A DNA stretch of 38,205 nt from Candidatus Cybelea tumulisoli (GTDB lineage Bacteria > Vulcanimicrobiota > Vulcanimicrobiia > Vulcanimicrobiales > Vulcanimicrobiaceae). Both the position numbers and the translations under genes were made by a program. The stretch covers positions 1-38,205 of the forward strand of contig PMTY01000051.1 in the NCBI GenBank assembly GCA_003167155.1, in the 5' to 3' direction. Numbering within the stretch: the stretch's first letter is position 1; each line of letters opens with the position of its first letter. The notes beneath the pieces are model-generated. The model ran no database searches. It saw nothing but the letters and a program-made list of their open reading frames with translations, and was not told the origin of the DNA. Shown in pieces: positions 5,652 to 38,205 of the stretch.

Positions 5652-6790
5652 GCGAAGTCCAAGTTCTTTGGCTTGGGCGGAATCTCCGTGTAGGCCATCG
5701 GCCGGTCCCACCAATCGTGGCGCCGGATCTCTTTGAGGCGTTCGCTCGGCGCGGGCGGAACACGCAGCTCGAGAGCGCGCGCATACGCGCCAACGTACCG
5801 GTCGATCATGCGCTCGACGCTGAACTCTCGCTCGACGTGCGTCCTGCACGCGCGCCTATCGAGCGACACGAGCTGCGGCACGCGTTCGGCCGCCTCGTCC
5901 ACGGTATCGCATAAGAAGCCGGTGACGCCGTCGACGACGATTTCCGGAAGCGAGCCCATGCGCGCACCGAGCACCGGCGTACCGCAGGCCATCGCTTCGA
6001 TCAGCGTCATGCCGAAACGCTCGGGCCGTGTCGTCATATGCACGAGGGCGAGCGCGCCCGAGAGCAGTTCGTTGCGCGCCTCGCGCTCGACGGCGCCGAG
6101 GAACTGCACGCGATCGCCGTCGATGTGCGGCGCGACCTGCTCGCGAAAGTAGACCTCGTCTTGTGGAATCGCCGCCATCTTCAAACGCACGCCGGCGCGC
6201 CGGGCGATCTCGATCGCGAGATGCGCCCCTTTCTCGGGATGAAAGCGACCGAGAAAGCAGAGATACTCTCCGGGCTTGTCGCTGAAGGTGAACTGCGCCG
6301 GATCGATGCCGTTGTACGTTGTCGCAAGATACTCGAGACCGGGGTCGCGGTCGGCATCGGAGATCGAGCAGTAGAAGCTGCGCTTCGCGCCGGCATAATA
6401 GGCAGCGAGAATCTGCGGCGATGAGAAGCCGTGAATCGTCGTAAGCAACGGCGGAGAATCCGTGGCCAGCGCGTACGTCAGCGGCTTCCAATCCAGATGG
6501 TTGTGAATGAGATCGAACTCGCCTGCGCGCTCAAAGAGCGCCGCGATGTGCAGCGCGGTGAAGACCTCGCCGTCGAGCGCAGGATCTTCATTCAATCCAA
6601 CCGGAACTACCGAGGTCAGCTTGCCGTCGAACCGCGAGTTGCCCGTTGCAAACAGCGTAACGTCCAAGCCGCGCCGCCGCATGCCGTCGGCCACGTTGAA
6701 TGCGATTTGCTCCCAGGGGCCGTAGCCCGGCGGTGGGGCCGGCCACGAAATCGCGCCGAGCACCGCAAGCCGCAGACCCGTCAAGTCCAC
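5648..6790 (-). CDS. Family 4 glycosyltransferase
   Basis: 380 residues, GTG start 3 bases after the preceding stop. It has the GT-B fold layout: an N-terminal acceptor domain with the glycine-rich loop PPPGYGPWEQIAFNVADGM and FDLIHNHLDW, then a C-terminal nucleotide-sugar domain with CFLGRFHPEKG, the ERFGMTLIEAMACGTPVLG motif (family-4 E-x7-E region), and GSLPEIVVDGVTGFL. Relatives transfer a sugar from a nucleotide-sugar donor to glycans, lipids or small molecules in the cytoplasm. Acceptor and donor cannot be read from sequence. It is coupled to the DUF3052-like gene downstream and the phosphoesterase upstream. Confidence 0.88.
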   Translation of the reverse strand: MDLTGLRLAVLGAISWPAPPPGYGPWEQIAFNVADGMRRRGLDVTLFATGNSRFDGKLTSVVPVGLNEDPALDGEVFTALHIAALFERAGEFDLIHNHLDWKPLTYALATDSPPLLTTIHGFSSPQILAAYYAGAKRSFYCSISDADRDPGLEYLATTYNGIDPAQFTFSDKPGEYLCFLGRFHPEKGAHLAIEIARRAGVRLKMAAIPQDEVYFREQVAPHIDGDRVQFLGAVEREARNELLSGALALVHMTTRPERFGMTLIEAMACGTPVLGARMGSLPEIVVDGVTGFLCDTVDEAAERVPQLVSLDRRACRTHVEREFSVERMIDRYVGAYARALELRVPPAPSERLKEIRRHDWWDRPMAYTEIPPKPKNLDFA

Positions 6791-30610: not shown

Positions 30611-31156
30611 TCACGCGCGTAATCCGAGTTGGTTCAATCGTATCTGCAGTGCTTGGCGCGATACACCCAAGGCTCCAGCGCAATCATCGATGGAGTTGTT
30701 CTCTACGTAGAGCTGCTTGCAAAGGCGCCCTGGCATCAGCAGCGCCGCGGCGAACTGGTTTGCGAGAACTTCCCGTCGCTTTTGCCAGGGCGAATCCTCA
30801 GTAGTTCCAATGTCATCGGGAGCGCAGATGAAAGAGTCGCCATGCGACTCAAACAGCGACGGAGAACCGGCGTTTCGGAAATCGAGGACAAGATGGGCGC
30901 ATTCATGAGCGAGCGTAAAACGGCGACGCTCCCAGATATCGAAGGCCTCGACTAAGATGACCCTGTGCTCGGGAATTAAGGCTCCAGATAGTTGCTTACC
31001 TCGGATGCAAAGATTCTCGATATACGCAACATCGAAGTCAAGCTTTGTCCTGACCAGCACTTCGACATCGACGCCAATGGCATTTTCGAGCCGCGGCACG
31101 CCCGTATACCTAAGCATCGCATCAAGTTCACGCTCGATGTTTACGTATTTCCGCAC
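30611..31156 (-). CDS. ImmA/IrrE-family metallo-endopeptidase
   Basis: 181 residues, GTG start directly after the preceding stop codon (TAA-GTG). Zinc-protease motif FTLAHECAHLVLDF (HExxH) followed by REVLANQFAAALLMP, the usual ImmA/IrrE third-ligand helix, and a C-terminal helix-turn-helix-like stretch (DDCAGALGVSRQALQIRLNQ). Family members such as B. subtilis ImmA and Deinococcus IrrE act by cleaving a transcriptional repressor or releasing one. Here the natural partner would be a product of the same operon, most likely the sigma-like protein or the unknown 138-residue protein. It is the last gene of the seven-gene operon. Confidence 0.85.
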   Translation of the reverse strand: MRKYVNIERELDAMLRYTGVPRLENAIGVDVEVLVRTKLDFDVAYIENLCIRGKQLSGALIPEHRVILVEAFDIWERRRFTLAHECAHLVLDFRNAGSPSLFESHGDSFICAPDDIGTTEDSPWQKRREVLANQFAAALLMPGRLCKQLYVENNSIDDCAGALGVSRQALQIRLNQLGLRA

Positions 31157-31573
31157 TTACGTAAATCGGCGTCGATTCAATATCGACTGTAATTCGAGGC
31201 TACTTATTCCGCCGGTATCACCGCCTCGGGCCGCCAACTGGACGTTTTCGTCCGCAGCGGAGGCACTCACCAGCTGTTGAGTCCTTAGCACTTGAGTGAT
31301 CGTTTGCAGTTCTGATAGATCTGTCCGAAGATATGAAATAAGGAACGACTGGAACTCGCGGTCGAACAGATCATCTAACGTGCCCGACTTAAGGTCTCTG
31401 ATACGCTGTAGTGTCGTGCGCATCTCACTTTCTGGCACTGTCGGCAGGACTGTTTCGATTAGTCTGCCGAGCGGTGACAGCGCAATCGCTGAGAACGCCT
31501 CTTCCACTGGCGTCATGTCGAACCGCTGCGCAGCCTCGACTGCTTGGCGCAGTTCGTCCTCGCGCTCAGTCAT
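31157..31573 (-). CDS. Unknown protein of the ubiquitin-like operon
   Basis: 138 residues (MTEREDELRQAVEAAQRFDM ... GISSLELQSILNRRRFT). Predicted helical and acidic, no signal, no membrane segment, no Cys. The ATG overlaps the sigma-like gene end by 8 bases and has GGAG 7 bases upstream, so expression is coupled. Its length, position between a sigma-like gene and an ImmA/IrrE protease, and acidic helices would suit an anti-sigma or repressor partner, but that is inference only. Confidence 0.7.
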   Translation of the reverse strand: MTEREDELRQAVEAAQRFDMTPVEEAFSAIALSPLGRLIETVLPTVPESEMRTTLQRIRDLKSGTLDDLFDREFQSFLISYLRTDLSELQTITQVLRTQQLVSASAADENVQLAARGGDTGGISSLELQSILNRRRFT

Positions 31574-32132
31574 TTGATTGCTCCCAATAGCGGCGCATTT
31601 TGCGTACGCCGCGGCTATGCATTTGGCGGAAAGTTTCCGGCGATATTTGGGCCGAATGAACTGACTCCCATCTAAGTCGCGCCTCTTCGTGATTCGAACA
31701 CTGCAGCGCCAGGGTCACGGCACTGTACTGGCGTTCGTTTTCGCCTTTGAGGCAGCGAAGTAGAGTGGCGAGTGCGCCTTCCACGTCAACCTCATCAGGC
31801 TCGAAAACTGCCTCCGTAGCCTCTCGGGCCAGCCAAGCACCCTCAGCCGAGCGAAACCGTTCGCGCCTCCTGACCACGTCAACGGCTCTACGGTAGGCGA
31901 TAGTCCTGACCAGATCGGCAATCTTCGGCGGGGTGACGTGGTTGCGCGCCATCGTGAGGATGGACGCCCAGGTCTCCTGGAGCACGTCGTGGGCGTCCGC
32001 TGGCATGTGAAGTCTGGCACAGACGGCACTCACGTAACCCCTGAGCATGAGGTCTGCATCGCTTCCGTTGCCCGTCTCGATCATCGTCGCAAGTGCCAAT
32101 GCGAACCGTTGCTTCCACACGCTGCCGCTCAA
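31566..32132 (-). CDS. Sigma-70/ECF-like protein
   Basis: 188 residues. The N-terminal part carries sigma region 2 features: DAHDVLQETWASILTMARNH (the DA-x-D-x-x-Q-E-x-W core) and LVRTIAYRRAVDVVRRRERF (region 2.4-like helix). The C-terminal half keeps a helical, basic end (SPETFRQMHSRGVRKMRRYW), in the place of region 4 and its HTH, but with weak similarity. Start is a TTG next to the E1 stop (TAATTG) with GAGG very close; a GTG at 32120 is an alternative. It may be a dedicated transcription factor for the operon or for a separate response. Confidence 0.65.
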   Translation of the reverse strand: MSGSVWKQRFALALATMIETGNGSDADLMLRGYVSAVCARLHMPADAHDVLQETWASILTMARNHVTPPKIADLVRTIAYRRAVDVVRRRERFRSAEGAWLAREATEAVFEPDEVDVEGALATLLRCLKGENERQYSAVTLALQCSNHEEARLRWESVHSAQISPETFRQMHSRGVRKMRRYWEQSND

Positions 32133-32936
32133 TTACCTCACCGCCCAACCGGCCCCCTCGGCACGGTAATGGCTGCACGTGTCAAGCCCCACGCCGAGAA
32201 GGTTGGGGTGCGGGCGCATCGTTTGGTCCAAGGCGTTGTAGCTGATGTATCGCGTGACGCCCCCAGCGCCGGCGAACCCGGCGAACAAGCCAAGCATGTT
32301 TGTGATTGCCTGCGAGGCGAGAAGGCCATTGATACTCACAACTTGCTGTTGGAGCGCGCGCGCTCCGTCGGCATACTCGGTTCGCTCGCGCGTTATCAGA
32401 TCATCGTGAAGGAACTCCATGCACCAAAAGCACGCACCACACGGTAGGGAAGTGACGACTTGCCCCCCGGCAGACACGATCGGCGGTTCGTCCGCATTCC
32501 GACCCGGCGTGATCTGCATGCCGACGTCGATCAGCGGCACGAAGGCCATGCGACAGAAGTACTCGATCAGATGGCGCGTACCCCAATGGTCGACCGCTCC
32601 GAAGCACACGTCGCATTGCTGGAGTGCAGCTATCGCATCGGGCGACTCTACTGAATCGACGATCGGCTCTAATCGAGAGCGGAGCCGTCGTAGCCGCCAC
32701 TGCAGCAGTTCCGCCTTTGGCTGGCCCACGAGCCCGTAGTGACTCATCACCACGCGATTGACGTTGGATCTTTCGAGCCAGTCAGGATCTATTATGATAA
32801 CGGACACAACGCCGAGATGCGCGAGCTGCTGAACGAGGTGCGAGCCACTTCCGCCCGCGCCAACTACGGCGGTACGCAGCGATTTGATCTTAGCAAGGCC
32901 AGCGGCACCGAGGAACGCCAGACGTGAGTCGCTCAT
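32133..32936 (-). CDS. E1-like (ThiF-family) adenylyltransferase
   Basis: 267 residues. Rossmann-type adenylation domain: VVGAGGSGSHLVQQLAHLGV, IIIDPDWLERSNVNR (catalytic Asp and Arg finger), GQPKAELL (Lys), CDVCFGAVDHWGTRHLI. A Cys cluster CGACFWC fits the structural zinc or active Cys region. Such proteins activate the C-terminal Gly of a ubiquitin-like protein by adenylation and thioester formation. Start overlaps the JAB gene end (ATGA). It has no fused E2, unlike CBASS Cap2, and corresponds to the separate E1 in bacterial ubiquitin-like operons. Confidence 0.88.
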   Translation of the reverse strand: MSDSRLAFLGAAGLAKIKSLRTAVVGAGGSGSHLVQQLAHLGVVSVIIIDPDWLERSNVNRVVMSHYGLVGQPKAELLQWRLRRLRSRLEPIVDSVESPDAIAALQQCDVCFGAVDHWGTRHLIEYFCRMAFVPLIDVGMQITPGRNADEPPIVSAGGQVVTSLPCGACFWCMEFLHDDLITRERTEYADGARALQQQVVSINGLLASQAITNMLGLFAGFAGAGGVTRYISYNALDQTMRPHPNLLGVGLDTCSHYRAEGAGWAVR

Positions 32937-33397
32937 CCTGGGACTTCCGCGACGTTGACGGCGACGAGCCTGCCGGCCTGGGCTAAAACTGCCGCGCCGC
33001 GATCTCGGCTTAAGATTAGCGCTCCCGTCGGAAGGGTATGATCGACGCAGCTGATCGGAAGAAGGACTTCTCTGTTCGTGCGCATGTCGATCGGACTAAA
33101 CCACGGCATGCCATAGTGATCGTGGAGATGCACCAAAAACACTCCGGCATTCACGCTAGCAGCGCGCTCCGCTTCAGCCATGAACCACCTAACATCAAAG
33201 CTAACCGGCGCGCTGACCAGTTCAACGTAGCCGTCGTTCGGCAACGCCCGGTATTCGGTGAGCACCACAACGGACCGGTTGTAGGAAGATGCGTACCGTA
33301 CGAAGGCAACGCCAAGGCGCTCCTCCCCGGCTATCGGGGACAGCAAAAGATCCTCGCGCATGTGCCTCGCCATGCGGCCGATAACGTTCAGCCGCAT
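32933..33397 (-). CDS. JAMM/JAB metallopeptidase (prokaryotic JAB family)
   Basis: 154 residues. Catalytic features: Glu in GEERLGVAFV, and VHLHDHYGMPWFSPID, giving the HxH...SxxD zinc site of JAMM proteases, slightly longer than the usual HxH-x7-S. In related systems (CBASS Cap3, BIL-type DUBs) these enzymes trim ubiquitin-like precursors or remove the modifier from targets. Here the neighbour's tail GGAG would need such trimming to expose Gly-Gly. Overlaps the E2-like gene by 10 bases and the E1 gene by ATGA. Confidence 0.75.
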   Translation of the reverse strand: MRLNVIGRMARHMREDLLLSPIAGEERLGVAFVRYASSYNRSVVVLTEYRALPNDGYVELVSAPVSFDVRWFMAEAERAASVNAGVFLVHLHDHYGMPWFSPIDMRTNREVLLPISCVDHTLPTGALILSRDRGAAVLAQAGRLVAVNVAEVPG

Positions 33398-33720
33398 TCT
33401 TTATATAATCTCAGATGGGCAAGTATCGCTTCATGCGGCGGGATCGTGGCTGCGATGTCCTTGATACTGTGCGCGTACATCACCTTACCGAGGAATGGGT
33501 GTGTATGCATCGGCAAGTTACTGATCGGCGTCAAAGGCCGTTCAAAAAAAAGACGCGTCGGATACCCGTTCATCTGCCCGCGGACGAACACCGCCCGGAT
33601 CCTTTCGCCGCTGCCTAGCGTCAGTTCGGATAGGTCGATAAGGGGTAGACCCATCTCGGTTCGCTCCGCCCACCCCTCGCCGAACGTGACGGTCAGCAGC
33701 CTCGCCTCGTCGTCTGTCAT
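33388..33720 (-). CDS. E2-like fold protein, apparently without the catalytic Cys
   Basis: 110 residues. Starts with TAATG overlap after the ubiquitin-like gene. After a beta meander (RIRAVFVRGQMNGYPTRLFF) comes HTHPFLGKVMYAHS, which aligns by eye with the HPN...G-x-[IV]-C segment of E2 enzymes, with Met where the active Cys would be; the only Cys is next to last (YKECG). It could be an inactive E2 that positions the modifier, or an E2 that uses the terminal Cys. Assignment rests on the operon context plus a short motif and should be seen as tentative. Confidence 0.5.
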   Translation of the reverse strand: MTDDEARLLTVTFGEGWAERTEMGLPLIDLSELTLGSGERIRAVFVRGQMNGYPTRLFFERPLTPISNLPMHTHPFLGKVMYAHSIKDIAATIPPHEAILAHLRLYKECG

Positions 33721-33959
33721 TACCCAGCGCCGCCGTGCCTGGGCACAGCGACGAAATGCTCGTCGTTGTGGATCTCCACTTCTTCGGTGTCGTAGATTTC
33801 GTGGCGCTTCTGCCCTTGAATACGGTAGAGCAGATCCGCGTGCGGCACGTTCGTCCTTTTCTTCAATTCCGCGCCGGTGTATTTTCCGGCGGGAAGTTCG
33901 AACGGCTTGTCGTTCATGAAGATTCGGACGAGGTGTTGGTCAGGCTCCTGGTTGTCCAT
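33720..33959 (-). CDS. Ubiquitin-like protein, multiubiquitin-domain family, single domain
   Basis: 79 residues. VRIFMNDKPFELPAGKYTGA then ELKKRTNVPHADLLYRIQG resembles single units of the bacterial multiubiquitin family, with a predicted beta-grasp layout (beta-beta-alpha-beta-beta) and the late HFVAVPRHGGAG. The C-terminus GGAG ends two residues past a Gly-Gly pair, as expected for a precursor that a JAMM protease would cut. GAGG ribosome-binding site just upstream of the ATG at 33959. It heads the operon; no other gene is in frame before it. Confidence 0.8.
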   Translation of the reverse strand: MDNQEPDQHLVRIFMNDKPFELPAGKYTGAELKKRTNVPHADLLYRIQGQKRHEIYDTEEVEIHNDEHFVAVPRHGGAG

Positions 33960-34332
33960 CTAACCCTCGCTTTCACCCTTAGGTCGCTGAAGGAAGCAGC
34001 TTGTGACAAGTGCGCCTGAGGTGCCCCGGCGGCGGAATTAGCGCCAAGGCCGGGACGGAGCAGCGGCCACCGGATTCGCTATCGCGATGGCCCCTGCGAT
34101 GCTTGCCGGACACAAGGAAGCCAGAAGATTCAGCCGCATCCGTTAAGGCGTAGATCCCAACTTGATACGAGGTCAGGGTGATCGCCGGCGGCCACAAGGC
34201 AAGCGACGCACGGTCCGCCGCCCGCCTCGTGGGTGCTGCGAAGACTGGAGGCAACGCTGACCCCCGCCGTCGGCGAGCGCCGCGGCGCCCGATCCAAGGG
34301 GCGGGTTACCATCTGAGATGCCTACGGTTGCA
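33960..34332. other. Gap between the ubiquitin-like operon and the Fic gene: no gene identified
   Basis: The stretch must hold the minus-strand operon promoter and most of the divergent control region. No open frame in it has a recognisable product. GC content drops sharply only near its right end, next to the tandem repeats. Confidence 0.4.
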
Positions 34333-34380
34333 GATCGGCCAAAAGATCGGCCAAAAGATCGGCCAAGTGATCGGCCAAAG
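34333..34380. repeat. Four tandem 12-base repeats before the Fic gene
   Basis: Unit GATCGGCCAAAA (third unit ends AAGT, fourth AAAG) is repeated four times, ending 42 bases before the Fic start codon, next to an AT-rich stretch with TAATAT at 34408. Iterated 12-mers of this spacing can place a DNA-binding protein on one face of the helix. They also translate as IGQKIGQKIGQVIGQ in one frame, which may be chance. Confidence 0.6.
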
Positions 34381-34422
34381 TGCCTGGTCTTTTTAATTGA
34401 AATAGAGTAATATAAGGCCGCA

Positions 34423-37636: not shown

Positions 37637-38205
37637 TCATGCGACTTTCTCTTGTGCAAGTGCGATCGTTTGATAGCCGTTGATGCGTCGCCAGGTCGTC
37701 GACAAGCGTTCGATCAGCTTGAAGACGAGATAGAGCGCTGATGCTCCGCTGCGTAGGCGCTTAGCCACATTCGTGCGTAAGCGAACGCTAGCGAAGACCG
37801 ACTCGATCGGATTGGTCGTGCGCAAACTCTTCCAGCTCGCTTTCGGAAAGGCGAAGTACGCGAGCATACGGTCGACGTCGTCGCGGACACAAGCCGCCGC
37901 CTTCGGGTAGTTTTTCGACAATGAAAGAGCGAGCGAATCGATCTTGCTCATCGCCTCAGCGCGGCTCGTCGAGCTGCAGATCTCCCGCAGTTTGCGGTGA
38001 ACCTCGCCTTTGAGTTTCTCGGGAACCTTGTCGAGTACGTTGCGGATTTTGTGCAGCCAGCAACGCTGCTGCGCCGCCTCAGGATATTCCGCCGAGAGCG
38101 CTGACCAGAAACCGTTGGCGCCGTCAGCAACAGCTAGGCGTGGCGCGCGTAGGCCTCGCGCCTTGAGATCGTGCAAGATCTCCCGCCAGCTCATCTCGCT
38201 TTCGC
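37637..38205 (-). mobile_element. IS256-family transposase, C-terminal part (cut by window edge)
   Basis: The minus-strand frame is open from the right edge to a stop at 37637. It shows IS256-family features: LAVADGANGFWSALSAEYPE (second Asp of the DDE set), QQRCWLHKIRNVLDKVPEKL, and TTNPIESVFASVRLRT with the final Glu. The N-terminal part and first Asp lie beyond the window. The left end of the insertion sequence should fall between 37535 and 37636, but I could not define its terminal inverted repeat without the other end. Confidence 0.9.

Follow-up and report, generated by a model that had tools for sequence, protein, structure and literature searches.

The 38,205-nucleotide contig of the soil bacterium Candidatus Cybelea tumulisoli analysed here (the window; a complete 38-kb contig, PMTY01000051.1, of a draft genome) carries a compact operon of seven minus-strand genes, which is probably a bacterial ubiquitination-like (Bub) conjugation operon joined to a three-gene switch. 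The first four genes encode a ubiquitin-like protein (UBL), an E2-like protein, a JAMM peptidase and an E1 enzyme; the last three encode a sigma-like factor (SIG), a small protein (UNK) and an ImmA/IrrE-family protease (ImmA). In the reading that we favor, the protease frees the sigma factor from its small partner in response to DNA damage or infection, and the control is positive. The conjugation cassette belongs to an already known family, whereas the sigma-ImmA controller appears to be undescribed: a literature search found no paper on a sigma-ImmA controller of immune operons, and Ye et al. (2026) and Gong et al. (2025) may hold an earlier mention. For the broader proposition, that SIG-UNK-ImmA represents a new general class of controllers of immune operons, positive and self-amplifying and swapped among Bub, BIL-like, CBASS and DNA-repair operons, the balance tips only slightly in favor.

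The seven-gene arrangement is not a product of chance, as the same order recurs in four other genomes of Candidatus Eremiobacterota, the phylum in which its nearest relatives place the host. Two of these, G047 from another family of the window's class and G010 from the window's genus, came from a search of relatives; the other two, G111 and G126, came from a collection scan and a search of the phylum (loci L013 and L093 are one contig, of G111). In the window the successive genes are separated by −1, −10, −4, 0, −8 and 0 bp. Relative to its nearest counterpart, L013, protein identities are 69% (UBL), 64% (E2-like), 53% (JAMM), 65% (E1), 40% (SIG), 42% (UNK) and 56% (ImmA), and such values, spanning 40–70%, mean that all seven reading frames have been kept during sequence divergence. 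The distribution of UNK points the same way: among the 149 genomes of the phylum, six have it, each time between SIG and ImmA, and five of these six belong to the six genomes that bear the cassette (probability by chance 6e-8). The initial annotation, made from the sequence alone, had proposed both the seven-gene parts list and a ubiquitin-like cassette that is joined to a module of sigma factor, unknown protein and protease. The parts list was borne out, with all seven open reading frames found between 30611 and 33959 and with families, motifs and folds in agreement; the recurring gene order likewise upholds the joining. By that annotation's own standard, the idea would have failed had the last three genes not been conserved together with the first four; the neighbourhood search found their order kept in relatives.

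A conjugation cassette of the Bub type

The first four genes represent a Bub cassette rather than a BIL or CBASS system. Their initial description as a ubiquitin-like system stands as far as the parts are concerned, but not in its reference to BIL and CBASS, since the best matches are Citrobacter BubB and BubCD. The Bub pathway was described by Ye et al. (2026) and Gong et al. (2025), as cited in PMC13373217. The Citrobacter Bub system (PDB 9ea4, 9ea5 and 9eae), which provides the best matches in both sequence and fold, is alike in having a ubiquitin-like protein, the E2-fold BubB, a JAMM peptidase and an E1. In the window, however, JAMM and E1 are separate genes, UBL has a single domain, and the sigma/UNK/ImmA trio stands in place of CapW, CapH+CapP or CapK+CapS. 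BIL was rejected because the E2-like protein has no conserved cysteine and the E1s conserve throughout only those that bind zinc; no Bil model was among the PADLOC hits shown for the window proteins. In BIL systems (BilABCD), both E2 and E1 have catalytic cysteines. CBASS was also rejected, given that the hits of the seven proteins included no cyclase or effector model and that the operon genes include no CD-NTase.

Each component supports this assignment. UBL matches Multi_ubiq (Pfam PF14452) with an E-value of 6.4e-5, one bit under the gathering score, and a profile of 17 relatives weakly matches the multi-ubiquitin-domain protein 9d5b and BilA (8u38) in the PDB. The window protein ends in RHGGAG, and its Gly76 is nearly invariant. 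Across the UBLs the glycine kept near the C-terminus is followed by a few more residues, commonly GSS, which suggests processing; two of them, in L009 and L092, are two-domain (tandem) versions. In the 46-sequence alignment of the E2-like protein, Ser85 is the sole invariant column and no cysteine is conserved, and on these grounds a conventional cysteine E2 was rejected. Bub conjugation reportedly proceeds via a serine-linked intermediate, which the invariant serine would fit. The AlphaFold model of the E2-like protein (pLDDT 94.5) has one convincing Foldseek match, Citrobacter BubB (9eae_C; probability 1.00, TM-score 0.74, E-value 0.074). The JAMM residues E26, H90, H92, S101 and D104 are present and are invariant or nearly so in 25 relatives, and the only PDB matches of the JAMM profile are BubCD entries, with modest E-values ranging from 0.0074 (Citrobacter BubCD, the best) to 0.31. 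E1 matches ThiF in Pfam (2.1e-28), and its profile finds Citrobacter BubCD first in the PDB (E=2e-22), with MoeB, ThiF and Uba1 ranking behind. No cysteine is shared by all 78 E1s examined other than the zinc ligands C169, C172 and C254; the zinc site also includes H256. In Pfam, the genes for the E2-like protein, JAMM and UNK have no significant match, and the first two were recognised from conserved motifs, from fold and by comparing them with sequences in the PDB.

From these features we infer a conjugation route in which E1 would adenylate the C-terminal glycine of UBL and then, with no E1 cysteine involved, transfer it to the E2-like protein, whose invariant serine would hand it on to target proteins. 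The JAMM peptidase might either trim the UBL precursor or take the tag off.

The cassette recurs in many phyla. Iterated profiles of the window proteins were used to annotate 73 loci from one collection scan and the Eremiobacterota loci. About 68 distinct loci hold UBL, E2-like, JAMM and E1 together and in the same four-gene order; they span Acidobacteria, Verrucomicrobia, Planctomycetes, Proteobacteria, Rokubacteria and others. Some relatives have JAMM and E1 fused, and in a relative on a Methylocystis plasmid the two middle cassette genes are annotated merely as hypothetical. A search of viral contigs with E1 returned no relative. In 2006, Iyer, Burroughs and Aravind predicted a related arrangement, operon type 6e, whose E2-like domain lacks the cysteine (PMC1779556). 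Type 6e is similar in its Ubl (present as repeats in 6e), cysteine-less E2/RWD-like protein, JAB and E1, but it was described without a sigma factor or ImmA/IrrE protease, and its metal-binding protein Y was not seen in the window. The window's genome also has a second, different Bub-like locus (L011, contig C176, positions 393-2941) with a double Multi_ubiq protein, a JAB-ThiF fusion and a DUF6527 gene; around it, a divergent helix-turn-helix (HTH) gene, a possible toxin-antitoxin pair and an integrase-like gene were read by eye.

SIG, UNK and ImmA as a separable module

By its predicted fold, SIG is a sigma factor of the extracytoplasmic function (ECF) type, with sigma2 and sigma4. Its matches to Sigma70_r2 (1.1e-3) and to several NCBIfam ECF models (2e-4 to 2e-3) are all under the curated cut-offs, and some SIG members of other phyla likewise match sigma models below cut-offs. 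When the AlphaFold model (made from three sequences; pLDDT 85.9) was compared with known structures using Foldseek, the top six matches were all ECF sigma factors (SigH/SigW), at probabilities of 0.60–0.90 and over the whole chain. Their E-values (0.13–0.51) and global TM-scores (about 0.3) are weak, so that the case for a sigma factor lies in the consistency of the hits. ImmA matches Peptidase_M78 (1.7e-13) and, as its best PADLOC model, capP (2.5e-18). Its zinc site, H84-E85-x-x-H88 (HECAH) with E129, is intact and invariant in 14 relatives. UNK has no significant family match, HTH included, in Pfam, NCBIfam, PADLOC or PHROGs, and its alignments were too variable for use in collection scans. 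Plasmids searched with a related UNK yielded none; in sampled Actinomycetota and Verrucomicrobiota one search returned only the genome already known, and a second, run without a positive control, was uninformative.

The SIG-UNK-ImmA order is found at 13 Bub loci, five in Eremiobacterota and eight outside the phylum. In the former (the window, L008, L009, L013 and L092) the trio lies downstream of the Bub genes in the same orientation. In the latter (L017, L034, L035, L040, L044, L047, L058 and L060, of which L035 and L060 are near-identical) it lies upstream and divergent from bubA; there is no HTH gene, and a sigma-like gene and a gene of 120-157 aa precede the protease. Most other ImmA-bearing Bub relatives have at this very position an HTH+ImmA pair resembling CapH+CapP, the HTH gene preceding the protease and being either divergent or codirectional with the cassette. 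This is in line with a published survey in which CapW or CapH+CapP accompanied 219 of 544 Bub operons (PMC13373217). Beside the Bub cassette of L020, a WYL-like (CapW-like) gene was read by eye.

The three-gene module is a separable regulatory cassette. Copies away from Bub were found by tracing the small gene, UNK, alone. They lie beside SbcD-SbcC (L100, genome G120), BIL-like (BilC/BilD-like) genes (L111, G495), Prok-E2_E with JAB-ThiF (L113, G357), DUF6791-ThiF with DUF6527 (L115, G486) and a CBASS operon (G431). The last comprises SAVED-HNH, CD-NTase and an E2-like protein with a SEC-C motif, and the trio is divergent from it (L114, 6419-11288). One further copy, in G507, has an unclear neighbourhood. 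The earlier reading had set the last three genes apart from BIL and CBASS, but the module is not restricted to Bub and does occur next to BIL-like and CBASS operons. The trio at L100 (6156-7667) and L116 (216-6979) occupies the 3' end of an SbcD-SbcC operon, which also has two unnamed genes of 595 and 269 aa. In G120 these two, upstream of SbcD, looked NurA/HerA-like by eye; they have no Pfam match and were left unnamed.

Known controllers provide partial parallels. CapP is a protease that is activated by single-stranded DNA (ssDNA) and cleaves a transcription regulator, and some Bub operons are accompanied by CapH+CapP (PMC13373217). PprI/IrrE, an ssDNA-activated protease of the same family, cleaves the repressor DdrO and controls transcription after damage (PMC10904395). 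Like CapH+CapP (Lau et al. 2022, as cited in PMC13373217), the window has an ImmA/IrrE-family protease next to an immune operon. However, CapP is described there as cleaving an HTH repressor, whereas the window protease is accompanied by an ECF-like sigma factor and by a small protein that matches no HTH family; the window thus shares the intact HExxH protease but not the adjacent HTH repressor. PprI/IrrE-DdrO differs in that DdrO is the protein cleaved and no sigma factor is involved. Pairs of ECF sigma and anti-sigma factors (SigH, SigW-RsiW) are similar in the fold of SIG and the overlapping gene pair, and the promoter-like elements would correspond to their two-box promoters, with a spacing of about 16 bp, ahead of their own operon. 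The window differs from them in having no recognised anti-sigma family and, as its third gene, a cytosolic COG2856 protease.

Promoter-like elements and the sense of control

In the proposed switch, the sigma-promoter part has the best support. In L044, L058, L017 and L040, hosted by Rokubacteria, Acidobacteria and Actinomycetes, the motif TGTC[CG]G-N15/16-GGGCA occurs twice, exactly and back to back, in each intergenic region between SIG and bubA, so that one copy points towards either gene. When slightly relaxed, the motif has 11 of its 12 hits in nine module loci within these short intergenic regions; as controls, 862 kb of other loci gave 7 hits, and shuffling the regions never produced a pair. 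Near-copies of the mirrored motif are present in L111 and L113, and in L114 a mirrored pair, GTCGGAAAG-N-GTATT, with a similar first and a different second box, lies between the trio and the CBASS operon. An unbiased search for mirrored pairs ranked L040 and L114 as strongest, found support in L017, L058, L113 and L035 and a weak signal in L044 and L111, and returned nothing in L034, L047, L060 and L112. Genome-wide, the loose form of the motif exceeded its reversed control by only about 2–3 times, and we claim no wider regulon. In the SIG-bubA intergenic region of L035 and L060 we noted an inverted pair, CAGTCCCAAGTAGT, facing both directions, which may be the promoter element used by this form of the module.

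The window appears to have a two-box element of its own, as would be expected if its SIG has diverged. Identity of the DNA preceding bubA in the window and in L013 is no more than about 25%, apart from TG-CACAA, ACCT at a distance of 16 bp, and then a 15-bp block ahead of the start codon. In the genome of the window this two-box pattern occurs once.

The elements also bear on a different mode of control, in which the trio represses the operon: UNK, or SIG as a degenerate sigma fold reused as a repressor, would sit on an operator until cleaved by ImmA, as CapP cleaves CapH. CapH+CapP, the closest precedent, is present at many relatives of the cassette; moreover, SIG scores under the sigma-family cut-offs, and the mirrored elements could be operator half-sites. 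Nevertheless, we consider such repression rather unlikely. The spacing of the boxes within an element is fixed (15–16 bp, −35/−10-like), while the distance between mirrored elements varies from about 12 to 25 bp, which is the opposite of what a dimeric operator needs and fits promoters better. In addition, the two elements of a pair point to one operon each, and the SIG model is sigma-like over its whole length.

Positive control by a sigma factor could then operate as follows. SIG would recognise the two-box promoter ahead of the operon and drive both the operon and itself. At rest, UNK would keep SIG inactive in the manner of an anti-sigma factor. A stress signal, probably ssDNA arising from damage or phage infection, would activate ImmA, which would cleave UNK or, less likely, act on SIG itself, and the freed SIG would transcribe the operon. 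Since the window's switch genes abut the operon and run in its direction, positive feedback would follow; in other phyla the divergent switch would use one mirrored promoter per direction. That infection or damage would activate the protease is suggested by analogy with CapP and PprI. We regard ssDNA as the likeliest signal because both of these relatives respond to it and because the module is also present on an SbcCD operon, in one copy. The immune-operon controllers in the literature that we considered relieve repression, and a protease-controlled sigma factor would represent a different logic. If true, sigma control would add amplification and a specific promoter sequence usable for finding controlled genes, one interchangeable switch would link ubiquitin-like conjugation, CBASS and DNA-break repair, and what Bub systems respond to would become directly testable with a reporter.

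A number of observations weigh against such a switch. The strong promoter motif is that of other phyla, and the window's own element is derived from two sequences. Profile comparison of Eremiobacterota SIG and UNK with those of other phyla was not significant and leaves their homology undemonstrated; because profiles could not join them, they were equated by order, size and setting. UNK has no recognised fold, and its binding to SIG and its cleavage are our proposals. ImmA of the window is short and lacks the C-terminal extension of its relatives. In L008 (G047; 5715-5990) about 70 residues including HExxH are missing from between the two ends of ImmA, both of which are preserved, while SIG and UNK are intact; in L009 ImmA is interrupted and contains Ns; and G007 has most of the Bub cassette without the module. 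These last three cases are either counter-observations or signs of decay. At L112 (6800-8600) the trio has no obvious partner operon; exonuclease-like and methylase-like genes were read by eye within a few kb of it.

The damaged ImmA copies and the trio-less G007 would suit a view of ImmA as a stand-alone protease or toxin-antitoxin remnant and of the trio as a mere travelling neighbour of immune operons. The mosaic nature of such islands and the fact that the link between the genes is known from sequence alone would do so too. However, the trio keeps a fixed order and tight packing both at the 13 Bub loci and next to five or more other operons, the HExxH motif is intact in 42 of the 43 ImmA copies longer than 120 aa, and the promoter-like motifs face the partner operon. 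This view is therefore very improbable. What the switch would serve is a separate question. A defence role is plausible from the company that the module keeps. Alternatively, and compatibly with the switch, the cassette could perform housekeeping or stress-related protein modification under DNA-damage control, with no part in phage defence. Authors working on Bub state that no anti-phage effect of Bub operons, that is, no protection against phages, has been demonstrated (PMC13373217), and both the module copy on the SbcD-SbcC operon and the ssDNA response of PprI and CapP would suit such a function. Since patchy distribution, mosaic setting and a module in common with CBASS and BIL-like genes favor immunity, we regard such a role outside phage defence as possible, though doubtful.

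Layout of the operon and its neighbours

Features of the seven-gene operon in the window
Feature	Position	Strand	Basis or remark
bubA-like, single ubiquitin-like (Multi_ubiq) protein, 79 aa	33720..33959	-	Pfam PF14452
bubB-like, E2-fold protein, 110 aa	33388..33720	-	alignment, AlphaFold, Foldseek
bubC-like JAMM peptidase, 154 aa	32933..33397	-	motif residues, PDB sequence match
bubD-like E1/ThiF adenylyltransferase, 267 aa	32133..32936	-	ThiF, PDB match
SIG, diverged ECF-type sigma factor by predicted fold (regions 2 and 4), 188 aa, TTG start	31566..32132	-	
UNK, 138 aa, proposed anti-sigma partner and protease substrate	31157..31573	-	start overlaps SIG end by 8 bp
ImmA/IrrE (COG2856, CapP-like) metalloprotease, 181 aa, GTG start	30611..31156	-	
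Promoter-like element before bubA: TGTCACAA-N16-ACCT-AA-GGGTGAAAGCGAGGG	33964..34008	-	

The Fic neighbour that had been assigned to the operon is confirmed (Pfam 1.4e-11), and a partial Mutator-family transposase, located at 37637-38194, is probably the reason why the contig ends there. The interval between the Fic gene and the Bub operon contains short tandem repeats of TTGGCCGATC at 34320-34385.

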